From: Parapedobacter soli
Lineage (GTDB): Bacteria; Bacteroidota; Bacteroidia; Sphingobacteriales; Sphingobacteriaceae
Assembly: GCF_025460835.1 (NCBI RefSeq)
Contig: NZ_JAMXAY010000002.1
Span: forward strand, 138,995 to 202,994
Reading direction: 5' to 3'
Length of the DNA: 64,000 nucleotides
Below are positions 51,489 to 64,000 of this stretch, piece by piece. The translations under genes and the position numbers were made by a program. The notes beneath the pieces are model-generated. The model saw only the letters and a program-made list of their open reading frames with translations, did no database searches and was not told the DNA's origin. Within the stretch, counting starts at the first letter, position 1; the number at the start of each line of letters is the position of its first letter.

Positions 51489-52466
51489 TTATACTTCATT
51501 TGCCACCCTGGTAAATTTATTCCGATACTCAATAGGAGTAAGCCCTGTGATCTTTTTAAATGTGCCTCTAAAAGCCTTTGTATCGGTATACCCTACGTCA
51601 AACATGGTTTCTGTAACGTTTTTCCTTGCGGCCTCAAAGATTTTTTTGGCAGCTTCTATTCTGACACGCTGTATATAAGTAATGGGTGTATTATTCGTTG
51701 CTTCTTTGAACCTCCTCTCAAAAGTTCTGCGGCCTATGTTAATTAAATTTGACAATGATTCTATTGATAATTTTTCGCAATAGTTTTCCTCGATGTAGTC
51801 CTGCACTTTTTCAATATCGTCATCGCCATGGTTGCGCTGGCCTTTGAATATAGCGAATTGATATTGGTTATCCCGGCCGATATCCAATGCAAAATATTTT
51901 GAAACCATCACAGCTGTTTCTCTATCGGCAAACTTTTCAACTAAATACAATATCAAATTCCACAAGCTGCTTGCGCCGCCGCTACTGTATATATTGCCGT
52001 GTTCTGTTATTATTGCTCCATCTTCCACTTCAACATCAGGATATCTTTCTCTAAATTCCTGGATATGGGCCCAGTGTGTAGAGCACTTTTTCCCATTGAG
52101 TAAGCCTGTTTCTGCTAAAAGAAAAGCACCGATGCATAAACTGGCTATGCTTGCACCTTTTTCGTGTAGTTTTTTAAAATAGGGGATTGCTTCCGCGTTG
52201 GCCGCTACCCCTTTGGCGGTGTCACCGAAGGCGGGTGGTATGATGAGTAAATCCGTTTCAGTGACGTCTTTCAACAGCCTGTTGGTCTTTATAGTATATT
52301 CACCATGGTTGGCAGGCACGTATTCTCTCAATCCTACATACTCTACTTCGAAAACGGGTTTTTTACCGGAGGCGATTAAAAACTCATTGGCGGTGTTGAA
52401 GGTCCTGAACGGTGGGGTAATGGCTTCAATTACTCCGTAGTCAGGCACGAAGACAGCTACTTGCAT
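51489..52466 (-). CDS. GlxA/AraC-type regulator with DJ-1/PfpI domain
   Basis: 325 residues. N-terminal DJ-1/PfpI-like domain (about 1-175) with ASLCIGAFLLAETGLLNGKKCSTHWAHI (nucleophile-elbow Cys) and ITEHGNIYSSGGASSLWNLILYLVEKF; C-terminal AraC HTH (about 215-315) with YCEKLSIESLSNLINIGRRTFERRFKEATNNTPITYIQRVRIEAAKK. Transcription regulator; ligand unknown. Divergent from the DoxX-like/SRPBCC pair, which it may control. Confidence 0.9.
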   Translation of the reverse strand: MQVAVFVPDYGVIEAITPPFRTFNTANEFLIASGKKPVFEVEYVGLREYVPANHGEYTIKTNRLLKDVTETDLLIIPPAFGDTAKGVAANAEAIPYFKKLHEKGASIASLCIGAFLLAETGLLNGKKCSTHWAHIQEFRERYPDVEVEDGAIITEHGNIYSSGGASSLWNLILYLVEKFADRETAVMVSKYFALDIGRDNQYQFAIFKGQRNHGDDDIEKVQDYIEENYCEKLSIESLSNLINIGRRTFERRFKEATNNTPITYIQRVRIEAAKKIFEAARKNVTETMFDVGYTDTKAFRGTFKKITGLTPIEYRNKFTRVANEV

Positions 52467-53822: not shown

Positions 53823-55252
53823 TAAAACGCCCTGTACTCGCCCGTCAGATACTGATTTGCTTTTTCTTCTTTGAATCTTGCGTTTTTTGCATCCCAGTGC
53901 AAGGTTTCGCCAGGAAAACGCCCGGCAATGGTACCCAAAAGGATAGTCTCTGTCAACTTTGAAGCATATTCGAAGGGTGCGGAGCACTCCCCTTTTCCCA
54001 GGCACGCATCTACAAATTGGTGGTAATGCTTTGGCCCCTCTGTGTCGTAGTTACGGATAGGCTCACCCAAACCATGCTCTTTGCTCACCTTTTCAATTTC
54101 AGACGAAATATCGACATACTTTCCCTTCACAATTTTACGGGGCAGTTGCATGAAGTGGGGCAGCAATAACCGGCCTTTGCTTCCGACGAACATAGCACCC
54201 TGGTCGGGCAACTCATAATCACCGGCTATCTTCGGGTCTAGCGAGACTTTGCCAGGGGTTTCTGTATTTGCGTTTGCTTTTTTCTTGTCCCCTTGGCTAT
54301 CCATCCCCGGCAGCACAAGGTCCTCATGCATTGGTGGGGCACCTGGGCCATCGTACCAGATCCATTTTAGCGACTTGGCGGTGTATTTGGTGCCTGGAAA
54401 CTCATAGGTTACCGTATTGTGTTCGGGGAAGCCGAAACCATTTGGAGGGCGGCATTCATTACTGACCGTGCGCGGTACATCCAACTGAAGGGCATTGTAA
54501 GGGGTGTCAAAAATATGAACACCCATATCGCCTAGGGTGCCGCAACCATAGTCCATTAATTTCCGCCAGACTCCGGGATGGTATACCCCCGCTTTGTAAG
54601 GTGGCTTGGGTGAAGTGCCTGCCCAAAGGTTCCAGTGCAGTTCTCTCGGAATCGGGTCTTCGCCTTCCGGAGGGGGGCCGTCATAGCCGTGGTTTTTAGG
54701 CGACCAGGCATGAACGGTATGTACTTTCCCGATAATGCCCGACTGAATCAAGAATGTGGCCAGTTTGTAGTCATAAAAAGAATGCACCTGGATGCCCATT
54801 TGCGTAACCAGTCCTTTTTCGGTAGCAACTTTCTTCATTTCCCGAGCTTCAGAGACATAGTGACTGAGTGGCTTCTGGCAATAAACAGGTTTGTTCATCT
54901 GCATGGCCAGCAAGGAAGCGGGAGCGTGGGTGTGGTCTGGCGTGGATACGATGACTGCGTCAATTTCATCACCCAGCTCGTTTAACATTACACGGTAATC
55001 AAAAAACACACGGGCCCCGGGGTGGAGTTTGTGGGCGGCTGATAAATTCAGGGCGTCCACATCGCAAAGTGCCACCACGTCTACATCGGGATGGGATGAA
55101 ATGGCCTTCAGGTCTTCTGCCCCCATGTTTCCTACACCGATATGGGCAGTGCGCAAACGCTTCCCTGCGGGGAAAGCTTTCAATAGTGAGGGGACCAGCA
55201 TGGCACCCAGAGCACCCAGCGTGCTCGTTTTTAAGAATTCACGTTTATTCAT
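53822..55252 (-). CDS. Gfo/Idh/MocA-family oxidoreductase, exported
   Basis: 476 residues. An N-terminal stretch (KREFLKTSTLGALGAMLVPSLLKAF) resembles a Tat-like signal but has no twin Arg, so export is probable, not sure. NAD(P)-binding fold: RTAHIGVGNMGAEDLKAI and VVALCDVD; conserved KPLSHYVSEAREM (Lys of the EKP-like motif), and the C-terminal sheet domain to the end. Acts on sugars or inositols, common in Bacteroidota glycan loci. Transcribed alone. Confidence 0.88.
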   Translation of the reverse strand: MNKREFLKTSTLGALGAMLVPSLLKAFPAGKRLRTAHIGVGNMGAEDLKAISSHPDVDVVALCDVDALNLSAAHKLHPGARVFFDYRVMLNELGDEIDAVIVSTPDHTHAPASLLAMQMNKPVYCQKPLSHYVSEAREMKKVATEKGLVTQMGIQVHSFYDYKLATFLIQSGIIGKVHTVHAWSPKNHGYDGPPPEGEDPIPRELHWNLWAGTSPKPPYKAGVYHPGVWRKLMDYGCGTLGDMGVHIFDTPYNALQLDVPRTVSNECRPPNGFGFPEHNTVTYEFPGTKYTAKSLKWIWYDGPGAPPMHEDLVLPGMDSQGDKKKANANTETPGKVSLDPKIAGDYELPDQGAMFVGSKGRLLLPHFMQLPRKIVKGKYVDISSEIEKVSKEHGLGEPIRNYDTEGPKHYHQFVDACLGKGECSAPFEYASKLTETILLGTIAGRFPGETLHWDAKNARFKEEKANQYLTGEYRAF

Positions 55253-56026: not shown

Positions 56027-57445
56027 TTGTTGAGAAATAAATTATTGGATTCGATTGCCAGCGCACGCTGGCGATATTGGAATAGCCTGGTAGGTAAACC
56101 TGATGAACTGCCGCGACAAAACCGTGGGTTTAATGTGGTGTCGACACTCGCATTCCTGCTGTTGGCGATTTTAATACCGCTCGACTGGTATTTGGGGCTG
56201 ACGGAAATCGCCATGGTGCTCCTCGTTACCGAAGGGATGCTTCTCGTGATGTATTTCCTTTCGCGGTATCGCGGATGGTACCAAACGGGCCTGCAGGTGT
56301 ACATGGCTTGGAGTTACCTGCTGATCACGTTTGTTTTTCTGTATAACGGCGGGAGTGATGGACCTGCACTTTATTTTTTCCTGCTTTCTTACCAGCTCAT
56401 CATCGTTTTTGCCAGTGAACGCCTGCAAGCGGTAGGCATGATGTTACACCTTATTTTTCCGGTTGGCCTGTTGGTGCTCGAGTACGTCCATCCAGCTATT
56501 GTTATGGCTGGTTACGAATCCGAAAGCGCGCGATACATCGACCTCATCACTTCGCTGCCCATTATCGTGGTTTCTATTTTTCTAACCACACGGTATCTCC
56601 GGAGAGCATACGACCGTGAGCGGACGGCGGCCGAGGAACGAGCCAAGTTGATTGAACACCAGAGTGAACGCATCAAGAACCAAAACCGGTTGCTGCAGGA
56701 AGCCAATCGCGAAAAACTGGGGCTAATCTCTATTTTGGGTCACGACCTGCGGAATCCCCTGAGCGCGATTACAGGCACGCTTGAAATCCTATCGGAAGAG
56801 GAGCTCCCGGCTATGGAGGAGCGGAAGCTGAAGGAGGACTTGTTGATTACGGCACGAAATACCTCTGACCTGCTGAATAATGTGCTTTCTTGGGTACTCG
56901 CTCAGGTAAAAGGAATTCATCCGGTATTTACTGCGGTGGAACCGATGGCCGTGATCGATCGCGTATTGGCCGTACAGCGGTTTATCGCCGAAAAAAAAGG
57001 AATAGCCATTCGAGTGGATGCAGCCGGTGATGCACCGGTGGTTGCCGATATGGAGATGCTGGAATTGATTATCCGCAATCTCGTCAGCAACGCCATTAAA
57101 TTTACGGGGCAGGGTGGTGTGGTAACGGTGGGTGTAATCGAGAATGCCGATGGGGAAGAATGCACCATCTTTGTGCGCGATAACGGCGTAGGCATGACAG
57201 ACGAAGACATCAAGGAGATTTTCAACGGGCAAATCCAATCGACCTACGGCACCGAAAGCGAAAAAGGAATCGGCTTGGGGTTGTTCCTGTGCCGGGAATT
57301 GACCCACCGGTTGAACGGAAGAATAAGGGTAGAAAGTGTGCTAGGAGCGGGTTCTACCTTCTATCTCACGTTGCCGGGGGCTCAGGCGGCGGAAGCCGAT
57401 AACGAAGAGGCTACCGCTGTATCCAATGGCGAAGCTTATGCGTAG
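56027..57445 (+). CDS. Membrane sensor histidine kinase
   Basis: 472 residues. There is no ATG near the start; TTG at 56027 or 56030 is the best choice. Five to six membrane helices (about 40-190) form an input domain, then a coiled-coil linker and HisKA with His in ILGHDLRNPLSAITGTL, HATPase with NLVSNAIKFTGQGG (N box), DNGVGMTDEDI (G1) and GIGLGLFLCRELTHRLNG (G2). No response regulator adjacent. Senses an unknown signal at or in the inner membrane. Confidence 0.9.
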   Translation: MLRNKLLDSIASARWRYWNSLVGKPDELPRQNRGFNVVSTLAFLLLAILIPLDWYLGLTEIAMVLLVTEGMLLVMYFLSRYRGWYQTGLQVYMAWSYLLITFVFLYNGGSDGPALYFFLLSYQLIIVFASERLQAVGMMLHLIFPVGLLVLEYVHPAIVMAGYESESARYIDLITSLPIIVVSIFLTTRYLRRAYDRERTAAEERAKLIEHQSERIKNQNRLLQEANREKLGLISILGHDLRNPLSAITGTLEILSEEELPAMEERKLKEDLLITARNTSDLLNNVLSWVLAQVKGIHPVFTAVEPMAVIDRVLAVQRFIAEKKGIAIRVDAAGDAPVVADMEMLELIIRNLVSNAIKFTGQGGVVTVGVIENADGEECTIFVRDNGVGMTDEDIKEIFNGQIQSTYGTESEKGIGLGLFLCRELTHRLNGRIRVESVLGAGSTFYLTLPGAQAAEADNEEATAVSNGEAYA

Positions 57446-57623: not shown

Positions 57624-58643
57624 TCACAATGAATTACGAACGATAACCCGCGTCGGGTTCCGTAATACAGTTGTTTCCCGGTTGATGATGGCATGGCTGA
57701 CGGCCTTTCCCATAGCTTCGAAATCAGTTGAAATGACCGTAATGCCGTCTTCCAAAATTTCCTTAACAGCCGTATCGTTGTAAGAAATCAGACCGATGTC
57801 CTTGCCAAGCTTATAGCCTTTTCCCCGCGCCAGTTTGATCAGCGCCACATCATCCGTGTCGTACCGGCTGAACGTGATGTAAGCATTGCCTTTCTTGAAA
57901 CTTCCGGCCTCCACTTCATGCTCAATGGCATATCGGTATCCATGCTCCATGCAAAATCGCAGGAAACCATCTACCACGTGGCGGGCATGAGTGGCCTCAT
58001 GGGGCGCGATAAGGACCAATTTTTTATATCGGGAAAGTCGATCTTTCAACTGGCTTAGCCCATCAAAAAGATCGTGCTCATAATCTTGGAATATACATGA
58101 ATATTCACCTTCAAGCTTTGGCTCGTTATAATCGATGATGATTCGCTTTTGTTCCGGTATAAGGTTGAGCACTTCGCTGGGGTCCTCTTTGAGGAAAGTG
58201 GCGATAACGAAATGGGTATAGTTGTGCAGGTTTTCGCGGATGAGGTTTTCAAACACCTTGAAGTTGTGATGATGAAAGTATATATCCACGTCAGCCATAT
58301 CCCGCAGTTCATCGAACAGCGTGTGGTAAAACCGATCGCGCATCACGTTCATCTTGTCGAGTAGCAAGAATACGCGATAGGTGTGGTCTACCGATTTCTT
58401 TTTGACGTAATAGCCCTTGCGGTACACGGATTCGATGATGCCTTTTTCGAGCAGGTGGTTGAGCCCCTTGAGCAAGGTCTCTTTGCTCATACCTAGGTCC
58501 TTTTCTAGCTGTTTAAGTGAAGGTAAGCGGTCACCGATGTGGAGCTGGTCCGATTCGACAAGGCGATTGATGTGGTCGACTAATTGCATGTATTTCATGC
58601 GGTGGGTTGTTGGCCCGTTATTTTCCAGGAGCGCTGTTTGCAT
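57624..58643 (-). CDS. GntR-family repressor with sugar-binding (LacI-like) domain
   Basis: 339 residues from the ATG at 58643; ATG 58598 is equally possible because the predicted RNA start is only a few bases upstream. N-terminal winged HTH (about 15-80) with LVDHINRLVESDQLHIGDRLPSLKQLEKDLGMSKETLLKGLNHLLEKGIIESV. C-terminal periplasmic-binding-protein fold (YRVFLLLDKM, VLIAPHEATHARHVVDGFLRF, IGLISYNDTAVKEIL) for a sugar ligand. Regulates its own gene and probably the SusC/D genes it diverges from. Confidence 0.92.
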   Translation of the reverse strand: MQTALLENNGPTTHRMKYMQLVDHINRLVESDQLHIGDRLPSLKQLEKDLGMSKETLLKGLNHLLEKGIIESVYRKGYYVKKKSVDHTYRVFLLLDKMNVMRDRFYHTLFDELRDMADVDIYFHHHNFKVFENLIRENLHNYTHFVIATFLKEDPSEVLNLIPEQKRIIIDYNEPKLEGEYSCIFQDYEHDLFDGLSQLKDRLSRYKKLVLIAPHEATHARHVVDGFLRFCMEHGYRYAIEHEVEAGSFKKGNAYITFSRYDTDDVALIKLARGKGYKLGKDIGLISYNDTAVKEILEDGITVISTDFEAMGKAVSHAIINRETTVLRNPTRVIVRNSL

Positions 58644-58650
58644 ATGTCTG

Positions 58651-58690
58651 CAAAAATAATCTAAATACCATAACAAACCAAACCAGTGAA
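58651..58690 (-). promoter_or_regulatory. Predicted GntR promoter with TGGT repeats
   Basis: Minus strand: TTTG at 58679-58682, 20-bp spacer, TATTTTTG at 58651-58658, exact -7 box. The -33 part is embedded in CTGGTTTGGTTTGTTATGG, direct TGGTTTG repeats resembling those at the SusC promoter, so autorepression is plausible. Confidence 0.55.
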
Positions 58691-58777
58691 GTGCGGATTG
58701 AAATGTGATTAATGGGTATTAGTCGTTGATAATCTTATTTTTTTCAAAAAAAAGTAGTTAATATTAAGATAATACTG

Positions 58778-58820
58778 TATACTTGCAACGTGGTTTGTAA
58801 ACCAGACCAGACCATACCAG
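58778..58820 (+). promoter_or_regulatory. SusC promoter region with palindrome and ACCAG repeats
   Basis: TATACTTG (58778-58785) is one base off TAnnTTTG. Six bases later lies the inverted repeat TGGTTTGTAAACCA (58791-58804), continuing as ACCAGACCAGACCATACCAG direct repeats (58801-58820). Placed at the transcription start, ideal for repression by the adjacent GntR protein. The rest of the 58821-59046 leader shows no feature. Confidence 0.6.
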
Positions 58821-59046: not shown

Positions 59047-62000
59047 ATGAAGAATTATCGAGCCGTTTTTAGACGGGTATTATTAATTTGCCCTCCTGTG
59101 TTGAGGGCGCTGGTTATTAAATGTGTGCCGATTGTTTTTTTATTGGCGCATGTGCACTACGCCGCAATGGCGATGTCGCATTCCGTGGAACCGTCGTCAA
59201 CCAACATCGTTCAGGCTAAACGAATCGAGGGGCGTGTGACGGACCAGGACGGAACGCCATTAGCTGGTGTAACGGTTGCGGTGAAAGGTACGTCTGCCGT
59301 TGCCATCACTGACGACACAGGCGTTTATCGTATCGTTGTGCCAGAGGGTGGAACCGTTTTGGTTTTTACCATTGTTGGGTTTGCATCCATTGAACGAACA
59401 ATAAGCAATAATGCAATCGTCAACGTTTCGATGACCACTTCGATTAGCGATCTGGAAGAAGTGGTGGTTGTGGGGTATGCCACTCAGAAAAAAATTAACC
59501 TGACCGGTGCAGTAGAAAACATCAACCTCGAGGATGTACAGGATCGGGTGTTAACGGATGCCAGCCAGATTCTTCAAGGAAAGTCATCTGGGGTGCTGAT
59601 TACGCAGGTTTCCGGACAGCCGGGAAGGGACCAGGCGGATGTCCGTATCCGTGGTATTTCATCTATTGACAATAATAGTAACCCGTTGATTATCATTGAC
59701 GGCGTAGAGTCTTCTTTAAGTGACGTGAACCCGAATGATATCGCATCCATTTCGGTACTGAAAGACGCGTCTGCGGCATCTATTTATGGAAACCGTGCCG
59801 CGGGCGGTGTGTTGATTATTACCACAAAACAAGGGCGGAGCGGGTTGGACGTTAATTATGTGGGGACAGTTTCCGTACAGGAACCTACGCGGATTCCGGA
59901 GGCTGCTAGCGCTACTGAGTTTGCCAAGGCTTACAATGAGGGGCGGTTAAATTCTGGATTGCCAATAGGTTACACGGAAGAGGAAATTCAGTTGTTTGAA
60001 GAGGCGACGTTACCCGAATATAAAGGTGTTAATTTATATGATGAATATTTTTCAAACGCGCTGACCCAAAACCATTACCTCAGTGCCCGGGGAGGGCAGC
60101 CGAATAAGTATAACTTTTCAGTATCCGGCGGATACCTGGATCAAGATGGGATTTTGGTGGGTACAGATCAGCGTAAGATTAGCTATTCGGCGAACGTGAA
60201 CACATTTTTCCTTGATGGCAAGCTCAAGGTCAGCGGCCGGTTGCTTGGATACGAGCGCAAGATGAACGAGTTGGATAAATCTACCGAGGGAATTTTACAG
60301 ACGGTTGGTACAACACGTTCCACCGCATATTTCAAATCAACGACTGGTTTATATTCGTATCCGGCCATCAACTACAGCTCTTATGTGAACGGGGGCGGGA
60401 CGTTTCGTAGCAATGGTAATTTAAAGTACCAACTGGGCCTCGAACTTAAGCCGGTAGAATCGCTGACTTGGACAGCGATGTATGCCAGTACGGGAAATTC
60501 ACTGGATTTTACAAGATTCTCGCCCAATCAGTATACGGCGGGGAGCGTATTTGATGAAGACGGCGTGTACCGACCGTCGTCAATCAATCTGCAGCGGAGC
60601 TATTCGACCTTAAGAACATTTAATTCTACCCTGAGATTTGATGAATCGTTCGCAGAGACGCATAACTTTTCGGCGTTATTGGGTTATGAAGCGATTGCGT
60701 TCAAGACAGAAGGGTTCGGTGCCCAAGGGACAGATTTGTCGGCAAACTTGCCAATCCTGTCGTTAGCCGATCCAGCTTCTATCGCACCGATAGACATTGC
60801 CAATGCGCAGCGGACGTCATTGTCTTTCTTTGGCCGGATTAATTACAATTACGACGAGAGGTACCTTTTGGAAGCGAATATCCGTCGGGATGGTTCGTCG
60901 CGTTTTATGGCAGGCAAGCGTTGGGGTACATTCCCGTCGATTGCAGCGGGATGGGTAGTTTCGAAGGAATCGTTCTTGTCGTCAGTGGATTGGCTGGATT
61001 TGTTGAAAATCCGGGGCTCTTGGGGGCTCCTTGGAAACTCGGGAATTGGAACAAACTATGCGGCTTCGGATGTCTTGTCTGCTGGTCTGGATTACAATTT
61101 CGGAGGTACCATTGTGCCCGGAACGGCCATCTCTTTGCTGGCCAACAGGAATACCACATGGGAAACCACCGAGCAACTTAATATCGGGATCGATGTATCC
61201 GTTTTAAACCGGCTGAATATCAATGTCAATTACTTCGACAAGAAAACCTCCGATATTCTGGCCCGTATCACGATTCCGGGATCATTGGGTATTTCCGGTA
61301 CGCCGTACCAGAATGTGGGCACCATGACGAACAAAGGTGTGGAGTTGGGTGTTGAGTATAACAGCGACCCCGCGAAGGCGTTTCAATACCGTATCAATGG
61401 CAATGTTTCCTACCAGAAAAACCGGGTGGTTGATATTGGTCCTTTACCCTATATTTTCCATAGTGCAGTATCTGGCTACGCGCCCCCGGCAGGGGTAATC
61501 CGTTCCGTTGTGGGCGAGTCATTTGGGTCCTATTTTGGGATGGTAGCGGACGGGATCTATCAGGTTGATGACTTCACTTGGCAAAACAATAGCGACCCTA
61601 GTATCGATTTTTATGATCGGGAGTTCGAATTGAAAGAAAATTATGCCGATCCGTCTGGCATTATGCAAAACCCGATGCCGGGGGATATCCGCTTTAAGGA
61701 CCTCAACAAAGATGGCGTAATCGATGATGGCGATCAACAGATAATCGGTAAACCAATGCCCGACTATATTTACTCGCTAAACCTCAATGGGCGCTTTAAG
61801 AATTTCGAACTGAATATACTCGCGCAGGGTGTGCTAGGAGCCGATGCGTATATTATGGGGGCTATGGTGACACCTTTTTGGAACGGGACCGGCAGTATCT
61901 CGAAAGAGCTATATGAAAATCGCTGGACACCCGACCGACCCAGTGAAACCTGGCAGCGACTGTACGACGATCGCACCCGTTCTGGCCTGATATCTTCTTA

Positions 62001-62241
62001 TTACCTGCAGAACGCTGCCTATTTGAGGTTGAAGAACATTACCTTGGGGTATGCAGTTGATCCGGGCCTGTTGCATCGATTGAACGTGAAATCATTAAAA
62101 TTATTTCTTAGTGTCGAGAACCTCTTCACGGTTACCCGGTTGAATAAAGGTTTTGATCCCGAGAAAAGCTTTAATCGGATTACTTCTGATTTTCATCCAC
62201 AAATACGAACCACCGCATTAGGATTGAACATTGGTCTATAA
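59047..62241 (+). CDS. SusC-family TonB-dependent outer-membrane transporter
   Basis: 1064 residues. Signal region (about 28-45), then a carboxypeptidase-like domain IEGRVTDQDGTPLAGVTVAVKGTSAVAITDDTGVYRI (about 60-135), TonB box region DLEEVVVVGYATQKK, plug with SGVLITQVSGQPGRDQADVRIRG, IIIDGVESSLSDVNPNDIASISVLKDASAASIYGNRAAGGVLIITTKQG, and a 22-strand barrel ending in TTALGLNIGL. Imports glycan fragments together with the SusD protein encoded 17 bp downstream. No anti-sigma-specific extension. Confidence 0.96.
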   Translation: MKNYRAVFRRVLLICPPVLRALVIKCVPIVFLLAHVHYAAMAMSHSVEPSSTNIVQAKRIEGRVTDQDGTPLAGVTVAVKGTSAVAITDDTGVYRIVVPEGGTVLVFTIVGFASIERTISNNAIVNVSMTTSISDLEEVVVVGYATQKKINLTGAVENINLEDVQDRVLTDASQILQGKSSGVLITQVSGQPGRDQADVRIRGISSIDNNSNPLIIIDGVESSLSDVNPNDIASISVLKDASAASIYGNRAAGGVLIITTKQGRSGLDVNYVGTVSVQEPTRIPEAASATEFAKAYNEGRLNSGLPIGYTEEEIQLFEEATLPEYKGVNLYDEYFSNALTQNHYLSARGGQPNKYNFSVSGGYLDQDGILVGTDQRKISYSANVNTFFLDGKLKVSGRLLGYERKMNELDKSTEGILQTVGTTRSTAYFKSTTGLYSYPAINYSSYVNGGGTFRSNGNLKYQLGLELKPVESLTWTAMYASTGNSLDFTRFSPNQYTAGSVFDEDGVYRPSSINLQRSYSTLRTFNSTLRFDESFAETHNFSALLGYEAIAFKTEGFGAQGTDLSANLPILSLADPASIAPIDIANAQRTSLSFFGRINYNYDERYLLEANIRRDGSSRFMAGKRWGTFPSIAAGWVVSKESFLSSVDWLDLLKIRGSWGLLGNSGIGTNYAASDVLSAGLDYNFGGTIVPGTAISLLANRNTTWETTEQLNIGIDVSVLNRLNINVNYFDKKTSDILARITIPGSLGISGTPYQNVGTMTNKGVELGVEYNSDPAKAFQYRINGNVSYQKNRVVDIGPLPYIFHSAVSGYAPPAGVIRSVVGESFGSYFGMVADGIYQVDDFTWQNNSDPSIDFYDREFELKENYADPSGIMQNPMPGDIRFKDLNKDGVIDDGDQQIIGKPMPDYIYSLNLNGRFKNFELNILAQGVLGADAYIMGAMVTPFWNGTGSISKELYENRWTPDRPSETWQRLYDDRTRSGLISSYYLQNAAYLRLKNITLGYAVDPGLLHRLNVKSLKLFLSVENLFTVTRLNKGFDPEKSFNRITSDFHPQIRTTALGLNIGL

Positions 62242-62258: not shown

Positions 62259-63863
62259 ATGATTAAGATGAAAAGCAAAACACTAACTATAGCCCTATTC
62301 GTTGGCATATTGTCTTTTGGAGGATGCTCTGATTTTTTGGAAACCGAGCCTATGGATTTTGTAAGTCCGGATAATTTCTCCACTGAAAATGATATTATTT
62401 TGGCCTTGAATGGCAGTTACCAAGCACTAATGGCTGATAAACGAAGTCCAATCAGTATCGATTTTATCACCGACAACGGAATTGTAACGTTGGCGAACAC
62501 TGGAGAAATCGAATTCTGGGACCAGACCCAGACACCTATTTCGGCTCCGGCACTCCGGAAGTGGGAACAGAATTATGCCGGCATATTGCGGGCTAACACC
62601 GTACTCAAGTATATTGTTAATGTGCCTATTGAGGAGAGTAAACAGCAACGGTATACAGGCGAGGCGCTTTTTTTACGTGCTTATTTTTATGCGGACCTTG
62701 TCGATTTTTATGGCGATGTGCCTTTCCGGACCGAGCCCGAGGGTTTAGAGAAAAAAGATTCTCCCCGTGTGGATAAGTCGATTATTGTAGATGCTATTCT
62801 GGCAGACCTGACGCAGGCAGCGGCATATCTTCCCAATCCGGGGACCTACAGCGGTAGCGACGTTGGCAGAGCAACCAAAGGGGCTGCATTGGCGCTGAAA
62901 GCTAAGGTAGCGTTGTACAATGGACTTTGGGAAGAGGCCATATCGGCTTGCCAACAAGTAGAAGAGCTGGGGTATTACTCACTATATCCCGATTTTTATG
63001 CCATGTTTAGTGGCGAAGCCGCTGAAAACAACCCGGAGGTCATTTTTGACATCCAATATATGCAAAACCAGGCGAGCAAAGGGATGTCTCATCAGTGGAA
63101 AACGTTTTTTAACAGTTGGAGCTCATACATGGCCCTACAGAACTTGGAGAAAGAATACTATATGGCCAATGGAAAACCCATTGACGATCCTTCTTCGGGA
63201 TACGATGCTAGTCGCCCGTGGGAAGGGCGCGATCCGCGTTTGGGTTATACTTTTGTGTTGCCGTATTCGATGGATGGGCATACTGTTGCTGGCGCGGTAA
63301 AGTATTATTTCCCCATCCAAAAACGATCCGCTAATTTTTCGAGTTTACGAATCCGGAAATGGGTTGACTACTCCGACGGAAGTGTCAATAGCATTTCGGG
63401 TAACAATATTATACTGCTCCGGTATGCCGACGTACTGTTGATGCATGCGGAGGCATTGTTGGAGTCGGGTACTTGGGCGAATAATAAGGCGGAAATCTTG
63501 CGTTTGGTTAACCTGGTCAGGCAACGACCGGGCGTAGAAATGCCCACCATTGAAGAATCGGAAGGCGAGGATGTAGGCCGGTCCGAACTGCGGGATATCA
63601 TCCGCCATGAACGGCGGGTGGAATTTGCTTTCGAAGGGACCCGCCTGAGTGATATACGCAGGTGGGAAATCGGAGCGGAAGCATTTACGGACGCGATAGG
63701 CTATCGTCCTGAACTTCTCACTACTAACGAAAGCAACGCGGTCTATGAAACGTACGCTTTTCGGAATCGCAACTTCAACACAAATAAGGGGTATTTGTGG
63801 CCTATCCCTGAAGAAGAAATACAGGCTAATTTGGCGTTAACAGGTAATAACCCGGGGTATTAG
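62259..63863 (+). CDS. SusD/RagB-family glycan-binding lipoprotein
   Basis: 534 residues. Lipoprotein signal ending LSFGGCSDF (lipid Cys about residue 23), followed by FLETEPMDFVSPDNF and TPR-like helices with ALFLRAYFYADLVDFYGDVPF (family mark), ILLRYADVLLMHAEALLE and RRVEFAFEGTRLSDIRRWEI. Ends YLWPIPEEEIQANLALTGNNPGY. Surface lid for the SusC channel. Start ATG 62259 or 62268. The substrate is not predicted. Confidence 0.96.
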   Translation: MIKMKSKTLTIALFVGILSFGGCSDFLETEPMDFVSPDNFSTENDIILALNGSYQALMADKRSPISIDFITDNGIVTLANTGEIEFWDQTQTPISAPALRKWEQNYAGILRANTVLKYIVNVPIEESKQQRYTGEALFLRAYFYADLVDFYGDVPFRTEPEGLEKKDSPRVDKSIIVDAILADLTQAAAYLPNPGTYSGSDVGRATKGAALALKAKVALYNGLWEEAISACQQVEELGYYSLYPDFYAMFSGEAAENNPEVIFDIQYMQNQASKGMSHQWKTFFNSWSSYMALQNLEKEYYMANGKPIDDPSSGYDASRPWEGRDPRLGYTFVLPYSMDGHTVAGAVKYYFPIQKRSANFSSLRIRKWVDYSDGSVNSISGNNIILLRYADVLLMHAEALLESGTWANNKAEILRLVNLVRQRPGVEMPTIEESEGEDVGRSELRDIIRHERRVEFAFEGTRLSDIRRWEIGAEAFTDAIGYRPELLTTNESNAVYETYAFRNRNFNTNKGYLWPIPEEEIQANLALTGNNPGY

Positions 63864-63913
63864 GGGTTCTATGCGAGCATCGGTAAATGCTGAATACATT
63901 AAAATTGATGATT

Positions 63914-64000
63914 ATGAGATTGAGAAAGTTAGGCGTTGTATGTGTTGTTTCTATGCTTCTTTGTCCCGGTTGCGCCAATAGCCAGGACATAATGAGTGGC
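63914..64000 (+). CDS. Lipoprotein, start only (cut by window end)
   Basis: 29 codons are visible from the ATG at 63914 (63908 also possible): RLRKLGVVCVVSMLLCPGCAN is a lipoprotein signal with Cys in CPGC. It follows SusD by 50 bp, the usual place for a surface glycan-binding protein or glycoside hydrolase of the locus. Confidence 0.6.
   Translation, partial: MRLRKLGVVCVVSMLLCPGCANSQDIMSG

Follow-up and report, generated by a model that had tools for sequence, protein, structure and literature searches.

Two tandem arrays of ACCA/TGGT boxes with a 5-bp period lie between a GntR-type regulator gene and a divergent susC-like gene of Parapedobacter soli, within the 64,000-nucleotide stretch of DNA analysed here (the window). 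Judged from the sequences, it is highly likely that these arrays are the operators of the GntR-LacI protein encoded by the divergent gene, through which this protein would repress both its own gene and susCD until relieved by a sugar. The array itself is very probably the binding site of the regulator, and control of the uptake system probably lies with a simple repressor that senses a sugar. Most well-described Sus loci are under membrane-sensor control; here a SusCD locus would be controlled by one cytoplasmic repressor through an operator that is short and readable.

The regulator gene, gntR (57624–58643, minus strand), is arranged divergently from a gene for a SusC-like TonB-dependent outer membrane transporter (59047–62241, plus strand; TIGR04056, 826.7 bits against a cut-off of 368.25). 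On the 3' side of the latter lies a gene for a SusD-like surface lipoprotein (62259–63863, plus strand; SusD_RagB, 168.3 bits against a cut-off of 23.1), and the locus therefore has the adjoining susC and susD genes by which a SusC/SusD locus is recognised. The next gene on the plus strand encodes a 928-aa protein with no Pfam match at E ≤ 0.001; its 5' part occupies 63887–64000 and the remainder runs past the end of the window (L050:5881–8667). It is followed there by genes for an SGNH (GDSL) hydrolase, an FAD oxidoreductase and an SSF symporter. As candidates for linked carbohydrate-active enzymes (CAZymes), the locus itself offers the SGNH hydrolase and the 928-aa protein, whose GH127-like match is weak (E 0.07); the loci of relatives additionally contain GH2, GH3, GH97 and GH31-like genes. 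The family of the 928-aa protein was present in 13 of 17 clustered loci, and at E ≤ 1 weak matches were obtained to GH127 (10 of the 12 scanned members) and to GH88 (9 of 12), which suggests a distant enzyme family of the GH127/GH88 kind; the predicted structure of the protein was poor (pLDDT 58.8) and its fold matches were unusable. Neither a hybrid sensor nor an ECF sigma/anti-sigma pair was found beside susC, where the upstream neighbour is the GntR-LacI gene and eight downstream genes were scanned, and a histidine kinase encoded at 56027–57445 had neither a receiver nor an AraC domain match. According to an excerpt of a 2024 review, CAZyme genes are commonly under hybrid two-component systems, ECF sigma/anti-sigma pairs or catabolite repression (PMC10766802), so that the contrast with the usual Sus control drawn in the preliminary description was a fair one as far as that excerpt goes. 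Elsewhere in the window, the protein encoded at 51489–52466 (minus strand) resembles, by eye, a DJ-1/PfpI-type domain with an AraC-type helix-turn-helix behind it.

The regulator joins a GntR-type winged helix to a LacI-like (periplasmic-binding-like) effector domain and is 339 aa long from the ATG at 58643. Pfam searches matched the GntR winged helix (PF00392) with 34.4 bits (cut-off 27) and Peripla_BP_3 with 27.7 bits (cut-off 26.5). The best fold matches of the predicted model (pLDDT 86.2, pTM 0.73) were mostly LacI-family regulators, with RbsR first, in agreement with the Peripla_BP_3 match and with the LacI-like effector domain that had been proposed at the outset. An all-helical C-terminal domain is the mark of the FadR subfamily; no such domain was found here, where strands and helices alternate and Peripla_BP_3 matches, and no MocR aminotransferase-like C-terminal domain was found either. 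The first 14 residues, ahead of the winged helix, were modelled with low confidence. The start codon is ambiguous: the ATG at 58643 would be almost leaderless, and that at 58598 is an alternative.

The predicted susC operator (ACCAGACCAGACCATACCAG, 58801–58820, plus strand) contains four ACCA boxes, at 58801, 58806, 58811 and 58816, and begins 15 nt past a -7-like box, TATACTTG (58778–58785, plus strand), which is one base off TAnnTTTG, the -7 consensus of Bacteroidota. The susC ATG at 59047 is found about 230 nt past this array and promoter region, and the predicted leader is roughly 250 nt long. The predicted gntR operator (ACCATAACAAACCAAACCAG, 58667–58686, plus strand), in which boxes 1, 3 and 4 are ACCA, spans the spacer and the -33 region of the gntR promoter, whose -7-like box, TATTTTTG, was read from the sequence at 58651–58658 on the minus strand. 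Both arrays have the same absolute orientation. All the sequence pieces named for this region in the preliminary description are present, including TGGTTTG, found twice over the gntR -33 region (minus strand, 58674–58680 and 58679–58685), 16–27 nt upstream, in the gntR sense, of TATTTTTG. The palindrome and the direct repeats said to lie at the start of SusC exist as well, provided that this start is taken as the promoter or probable transcription start and not as the ATG at 59047. The palindrome, TGGTTTGTAAACCA (58791–58804, not assigned to a strand), is built from an inverted TGGT 6 nt before box 1 plus box 1 of the susC array itself.

Taken alone, the words originally singled out are within chance, while the 5-bp array is beyond it. 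TGGTTTG occurs nine times in the window against 12.4 expected, with no enrichment, and the palindrome with up to three mismatches occurs 11 times against 6.4 expected, a weak enrichment that 8 of 100 shuffles reached. The exact four-box array, for its part, occurs a single time in the 5.17-Mb genome, in the gntR/susC region. A stricter pattern is matched twice in the genome, by the 58801 and 58667 sites. With the looser TGGTNTGGTNTG, 17 matches were obtained in the genome: three belong to the two sites of the gntR/susC region, three (L009, L012 and L016) lie inside frames of 101–186 aa, a candidate for an unlinked regulon member at C145:17420 (L014) is intergenic, upstream of another susC-like gene, and the remaining ten lie inside frames of at least 323 aa. 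The C145:17420 candidate was left out of the regulon because it fails the strict pattern. The susC-like gene at that place has ACCAAACCAC and scattered ACCA boxes upstream (L014:1401–1860) and is divergent from a malate:quinone oxidoreductase-like gene, both genes being assigned by eye. Identical TGGTATGGTCTGGT matches in contig C107 of the same genome and in G093:C11 are within frames of 910–920 aa, and similar ones were seen in G019:C59 and G052.

Conservation of the array was analysed upstream of regulator orthologs. The regulator was searched for in 151 genomes of the family and 400 of the order, giving a set of 57 genes with at least 56% identity, the P. soli gene included; 0.4–2.5 kb of upstream DNA was taken per ortholog and a 20-base matrix was fitted to all regions. 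A site of at least 18 bits was found upstream of 52 of the 57 orthologs, and none was found on the opposite strand (0/57), in dinucleotide shuffles (0/570) or in the upstream regions of 15 paralogs, namely those with returned loci; the 52 sites are not independent, given the shared ancestry of the orthologs. Among them, box 1 reads ACCA in 51 and box 3 in 49, with both being ACCA in all 21 non-redundant loci, whereas box 2 varies (ACCA in 30, TCTA in 11, TCCA in 7, others in 4), as does box 4 (ACCA in 24, ACTA in 27). Such near-invariance of boxes 1 and 3 points to strong boxes separated by one helical turn and a weaker set offset from them by half a turn, and in one ortholog (L171) it is boxes 2 and 4, likewise 10 bp apart, that read ACCA. 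In the non-redundant loci, the information content was 1.4–1.5 bits per position inside the site against 0.1–0.4 in the 10-nt flanks. Three-unit ACCA runs with period 5 were present in the first 400 nt of 27 of the 57 regions, and at periods 4 and 6–11 no 4-mer formed such runs in more than two regions, AT-only and single-letter words being omitted from the count. A matrix built from 43 distant orthologs, with nine close ones including the P. soli locus omitted, scored 28.7–32.4 bits in those nine; in the window it placed the 58801 site first (32.4 bits) and the 58667 site second (22.7), followed by register-shifted overlaps of the 58801 site (11.0 and 10.0) and by 7.6 bits at 54927. This cross-check is not fully independent, because the positions of the training sites came from the joint fit. 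Two homologs at 46–47% identity had no array.

The same set of sites speaks against the palindrome as the operator element suggested in the preliminary description. Its inverted partner (TGGT-N6/7-ACCA) is kept in only 5 of the 52 orthologous sites, the conserved element being the direct repeat, and a palindromic operator was rejected. A different palindrome was noticed in some relatives. Box 2 is TCTA, TCCA, TACA or ACTA in L129, L131, L133–L149, L153 and L158, and the sites with TCTA contain GTCTAGAC, which matches the HutC-type GntR palindrome GTMTAKAC as given in part of the source (PMC4494728); these sites may show how palindromic and tandem readings interconvert.

The array also tracks the regulator across genomes. 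The four-box array was detected in 14 of 151 family genomes, comprising 12 of the 15 that hold the ortholog and 2 of the 136 others (Fisher p = 2e-13, with genomes treated as independent). A period-6 version was chosen as control, because TGGT reads the same when reversed and a reversed-pattern control is uninformative for TGGT arrays, and it was unlinked to the ortholog, being present in 1 of the 15 holders and in 15 of the 136 other genomes. One of the two non-holders, G024, has a plain TGGTA microsatellite; the other, G028, has TGGTG boxes between a susC-like gene (assigned by eye) and another GntR-LacI gene, whose product is 31–33% identical to the regulator of the window. The sole other homolog of the G028 protein at E ≤ 1e-70 in the family sample is a regulator of G085, 56% identical to it, which also faces a susC-like gene (by eye) with ACCAcACCAcacaacACCA between them. 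These proteins (L076 and L150 in G028:C39; L151 in G085:C258) form a second GntR-LacI subfamily, 31–33% identical to the first and divergent from a susC-like gene, with ACCAC/TGGTG boxes in its intergenic regions. The strict pattern was written from the matrix fitted to the same orthologs, and 25 holder genomes were chosen from those found; it matched in 24 of these 25 and in 1 of 25 genomes without the ortholog, namely G028. The holder lacking it (G371) nevertheless has a site of 23.7 bits. Chance matches to a pattern of this kind are not rare, since its reversed version matched 5 of the 25 non-holders, G028 included, where the true pattern matched G028 alone; strict matches at G063:C2, G052:C1:2944064 and G240:C2 are far from the regulator and chance-like. 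In a sample of the phylum, the four-box array was present in 6 of 395 genomes, the P. soli genome included, and in the other five no GntR or SusC context was seen by eye at the one or two loci inspected in each. The pair of regulator and operator was found in seven genera of the family. With the same array at both genes and this co-occurrence, the earlier proposal of one operator common to gntR and susC is supported.

At the promoters themselves, an exact TAnnTTTG, which the window lacks, was found within 32 nt upstream of 28 of the 52 ortholog sites. An exact two-box run occurs within 140 bp of gntR in 36 of the 57 orthologs, 34 of which show TAnnTTTG no more than 45 nt away towards gntR, a count made with no chance control; as the run is absent from the other 21, autoregulation appears less conserved than the susC site. 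The distance between both arrays, measured by hand in ten loci, varies from 104 to 151 bp, and fixed-phase looping between them is therefore unsupported.

Within the DNA fetched, 37 of the 52 arrays, that of P. soli included, have a SusC-like match on their downstream side. The other 36 neighbours are just 31–42% identical to the P. soli SusC over the aligned parts, a divergence that holds even where the regulators share 82–85% identity. The operator thus persists beside very different targets, and it could serve to predict the member operons of the regulon as well as to test how a symmetric repressor reads half-turn-spaced direct repeats. In several loci the first gene differs, encoding a 776-aa protein (G087) or a relative of GH3 enzymes (G109, G117), and in five loci (L053, L055, L059, L061 and L064) further arrays precede other nearby genes. 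For the five array-less orthologs (L157, L160, L164, L165 and L167), about 2.5 kb of upstream DNA contained no SusC-like match, and two ACCA boxes are retained at gntR, although this contrast is weak because 15 of the 52 array-bearing orthologs, several with less DNA fetched, also have no such match. A frame near the L157 regulator resembles, by eye, an RNA polymerase sigma factor.

From the positions of the arrays we infer the following mode of action. In the absence of ligand, the GntR-LacI protein would bind the tandem ACCA/TGGT boxes, probably using two of them that are separated by one helical turn (10 bp), while the intervening boxes would add half-turn sites. At susC, the bound protein would cover about +10 to +30, as counted from the predicted -7 box, and block RNA polymerase; at gntR, it would cover the -33 region and the spacer and so repress its own gene. 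Binding of a sugar that the locus has released and imported to the cytoplasmic LacI-like domain would then free the DNA, switching on susCD and the downstream genes. Since the arrays cover the start region of susC and the -33 region of gntR, the simplest reading is that RNA polymerase is occluded and both genes are repressed, and this part of the preliminary description stands as the natural one even though its palindromic operator does not. One point against it is that a symmetric dimer is not obviously suited to direct repeats. In geometrical terms the site is compatible with several dimers on tandem half-sites, and more speculatively GntR-LacI dimers might load side by side on the half-turn array, on alternating faces of the helix, to give a steep cooperative Sus switch; a NanR-like multi-dimer repressor would then have evolved on a LacI-type sensor as a portable module while the SusC genes change. 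We regard this extension as possible but rather doubtful.

LacI-like domains can serve activators, and the two arrays share their absolute orientation, both of which would suit a protein that represses itself and activates susC when loaded with sugar. The susC array is poorly placed for this, lying downstream of the -7-like box and over the start region, and GntR proteins on comparable operators, NanR and, at second hand, AusR, are repressors in the portions of the literature considered, so that we take an activator or dual role to be unlikely. Being within the 5' part of the predicted leader of about 250 nt, the susC array could alternatively act in the mRNA, bound by RNA or by an RNA-binding protein. 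The gntR array, however, is upstream of its -7-like box, where the predicted transcript does not reach, and its sense relative to the gene is the opposite one; the presence of the array, moreover, tracks a DNA-binding protein. A role in the leader is accordingly very improbable.

Repression by the neighbouring GntR-LacI protein must also be weighed against a reading of the arrays by another conserved transcription factor, given that TGGT-like half-sites are common to many regulators, as stated in part of the source (PMC4494728). Such a factor would be expected to have sites in genomes without the ortholog, yet such a site turned up in only one of 25, where it is flanked by a susC-like gene and a different GntR-LacI gene, and the P. 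soli genome has just the two strict matches; we give this explanation very little credit. A chance tandem repeat or microsatellite is conceivable in so far as pure 5-bp repeats do occur, such as TGGTA in G024 and TGGTT in G605. In the arrays, however, boxes 1 and 3 are kept from genus to genus whereas the spacers and boxes 2 and 4 are variable, the period-6 version does not follow the ortholog, and periods other than 5 give hardly any three-unit runs in these regions, which leaves this origin with a negligible probability.

AusR is FadR-like, is not known to have a LacI domain, and is said to have been described as a GntR repressor of alginate use by Dudek et al. in 2020. That paper is outside the literature searched, in whose partial coverage we found no earlier account of this tandem operator. 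The sources that we cite for known systems are represented by excerpts, and the comparisons are to be read with that scope. AusR of the flavobacterium Zobellia galactanivorans is a GntR repressor of alginate loci (PMC7874173, PMC8286568, PMC8073546) and, at second hand, its operator is said to occur at promoters in one, two or three bound copies, from which metabolic intermediates release the protein (PMC7874173). By second-hand description it thus resembles the presumed role of the present regulator, that of a GntR-family repressor of SusC/D-type loci in Bacteroidota. FucR (BT1272) and ManR (BT2103) of Bacteroides thetaiotaomicron, GntR-family sugar regulators listed for monosaccharide pathways (PMC3878776), are alike by description only, in the GntR-family control of sugar use in this phylum. 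Direct-repeat operators are known for other GntR proteins, including NanR (TGGTATAW), NagQ (TGGTATT) and the MocR regulators (PMC4494728, PMC5320631). The latter (GabR, PdxR, TauR) combine a GntR winged helix with frequent direct-repeat operators, ATACCA in the case of GabR (PMC4494728, PMC5320631), but differ in their aminotransferase-like domain, absent from our regulator.

The same protein plan is known from AraR of Bacillus subtilis, in which a GntR winged helix is likewise joined to a GalR/LacI-type effector domain and which acts on sugar genes and has an operator at its own gene (PMC4218819). In sequence, AraR matched the winged helix at 5.4e-10, below several other GntR proteins, and gave no effector-domain match at E ≤ 0.001. 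Its operators are palindromic, At(T/A)tGTaCGTAcaa(A/T)T, some being paired with looping (PMC4218819), whereas no operator of that type was found at the regulator of the window, where the conserved element is a direct-repeat array; phylum and targets differ as well. The operator is closer to that of Escherichia coli NanR, a member of the FadR subfamily (PMC4494728), of which three dimers assemble cooperatively on (GGTATA)3, with a displacement of roughly half a helical turn from each to the next (PMC8012715). Both systems pair a GntR winged helix with GGT-containing direct repeats in tandem, and they differ in the LacI-like C-terminal domain found here and in the boxes, which follow every 5 bp with 1 bp between. 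An N-terminal extension helps the assembly of NanR, and the 14 residues before the winged helix of our regulator could conceivably do the same. On these comparisons, the system would best be classed as one that combines, at Sus loci, an AraR-like protein plan with a tandem operator that resembles the one of NanR and has a period of 5 bp.
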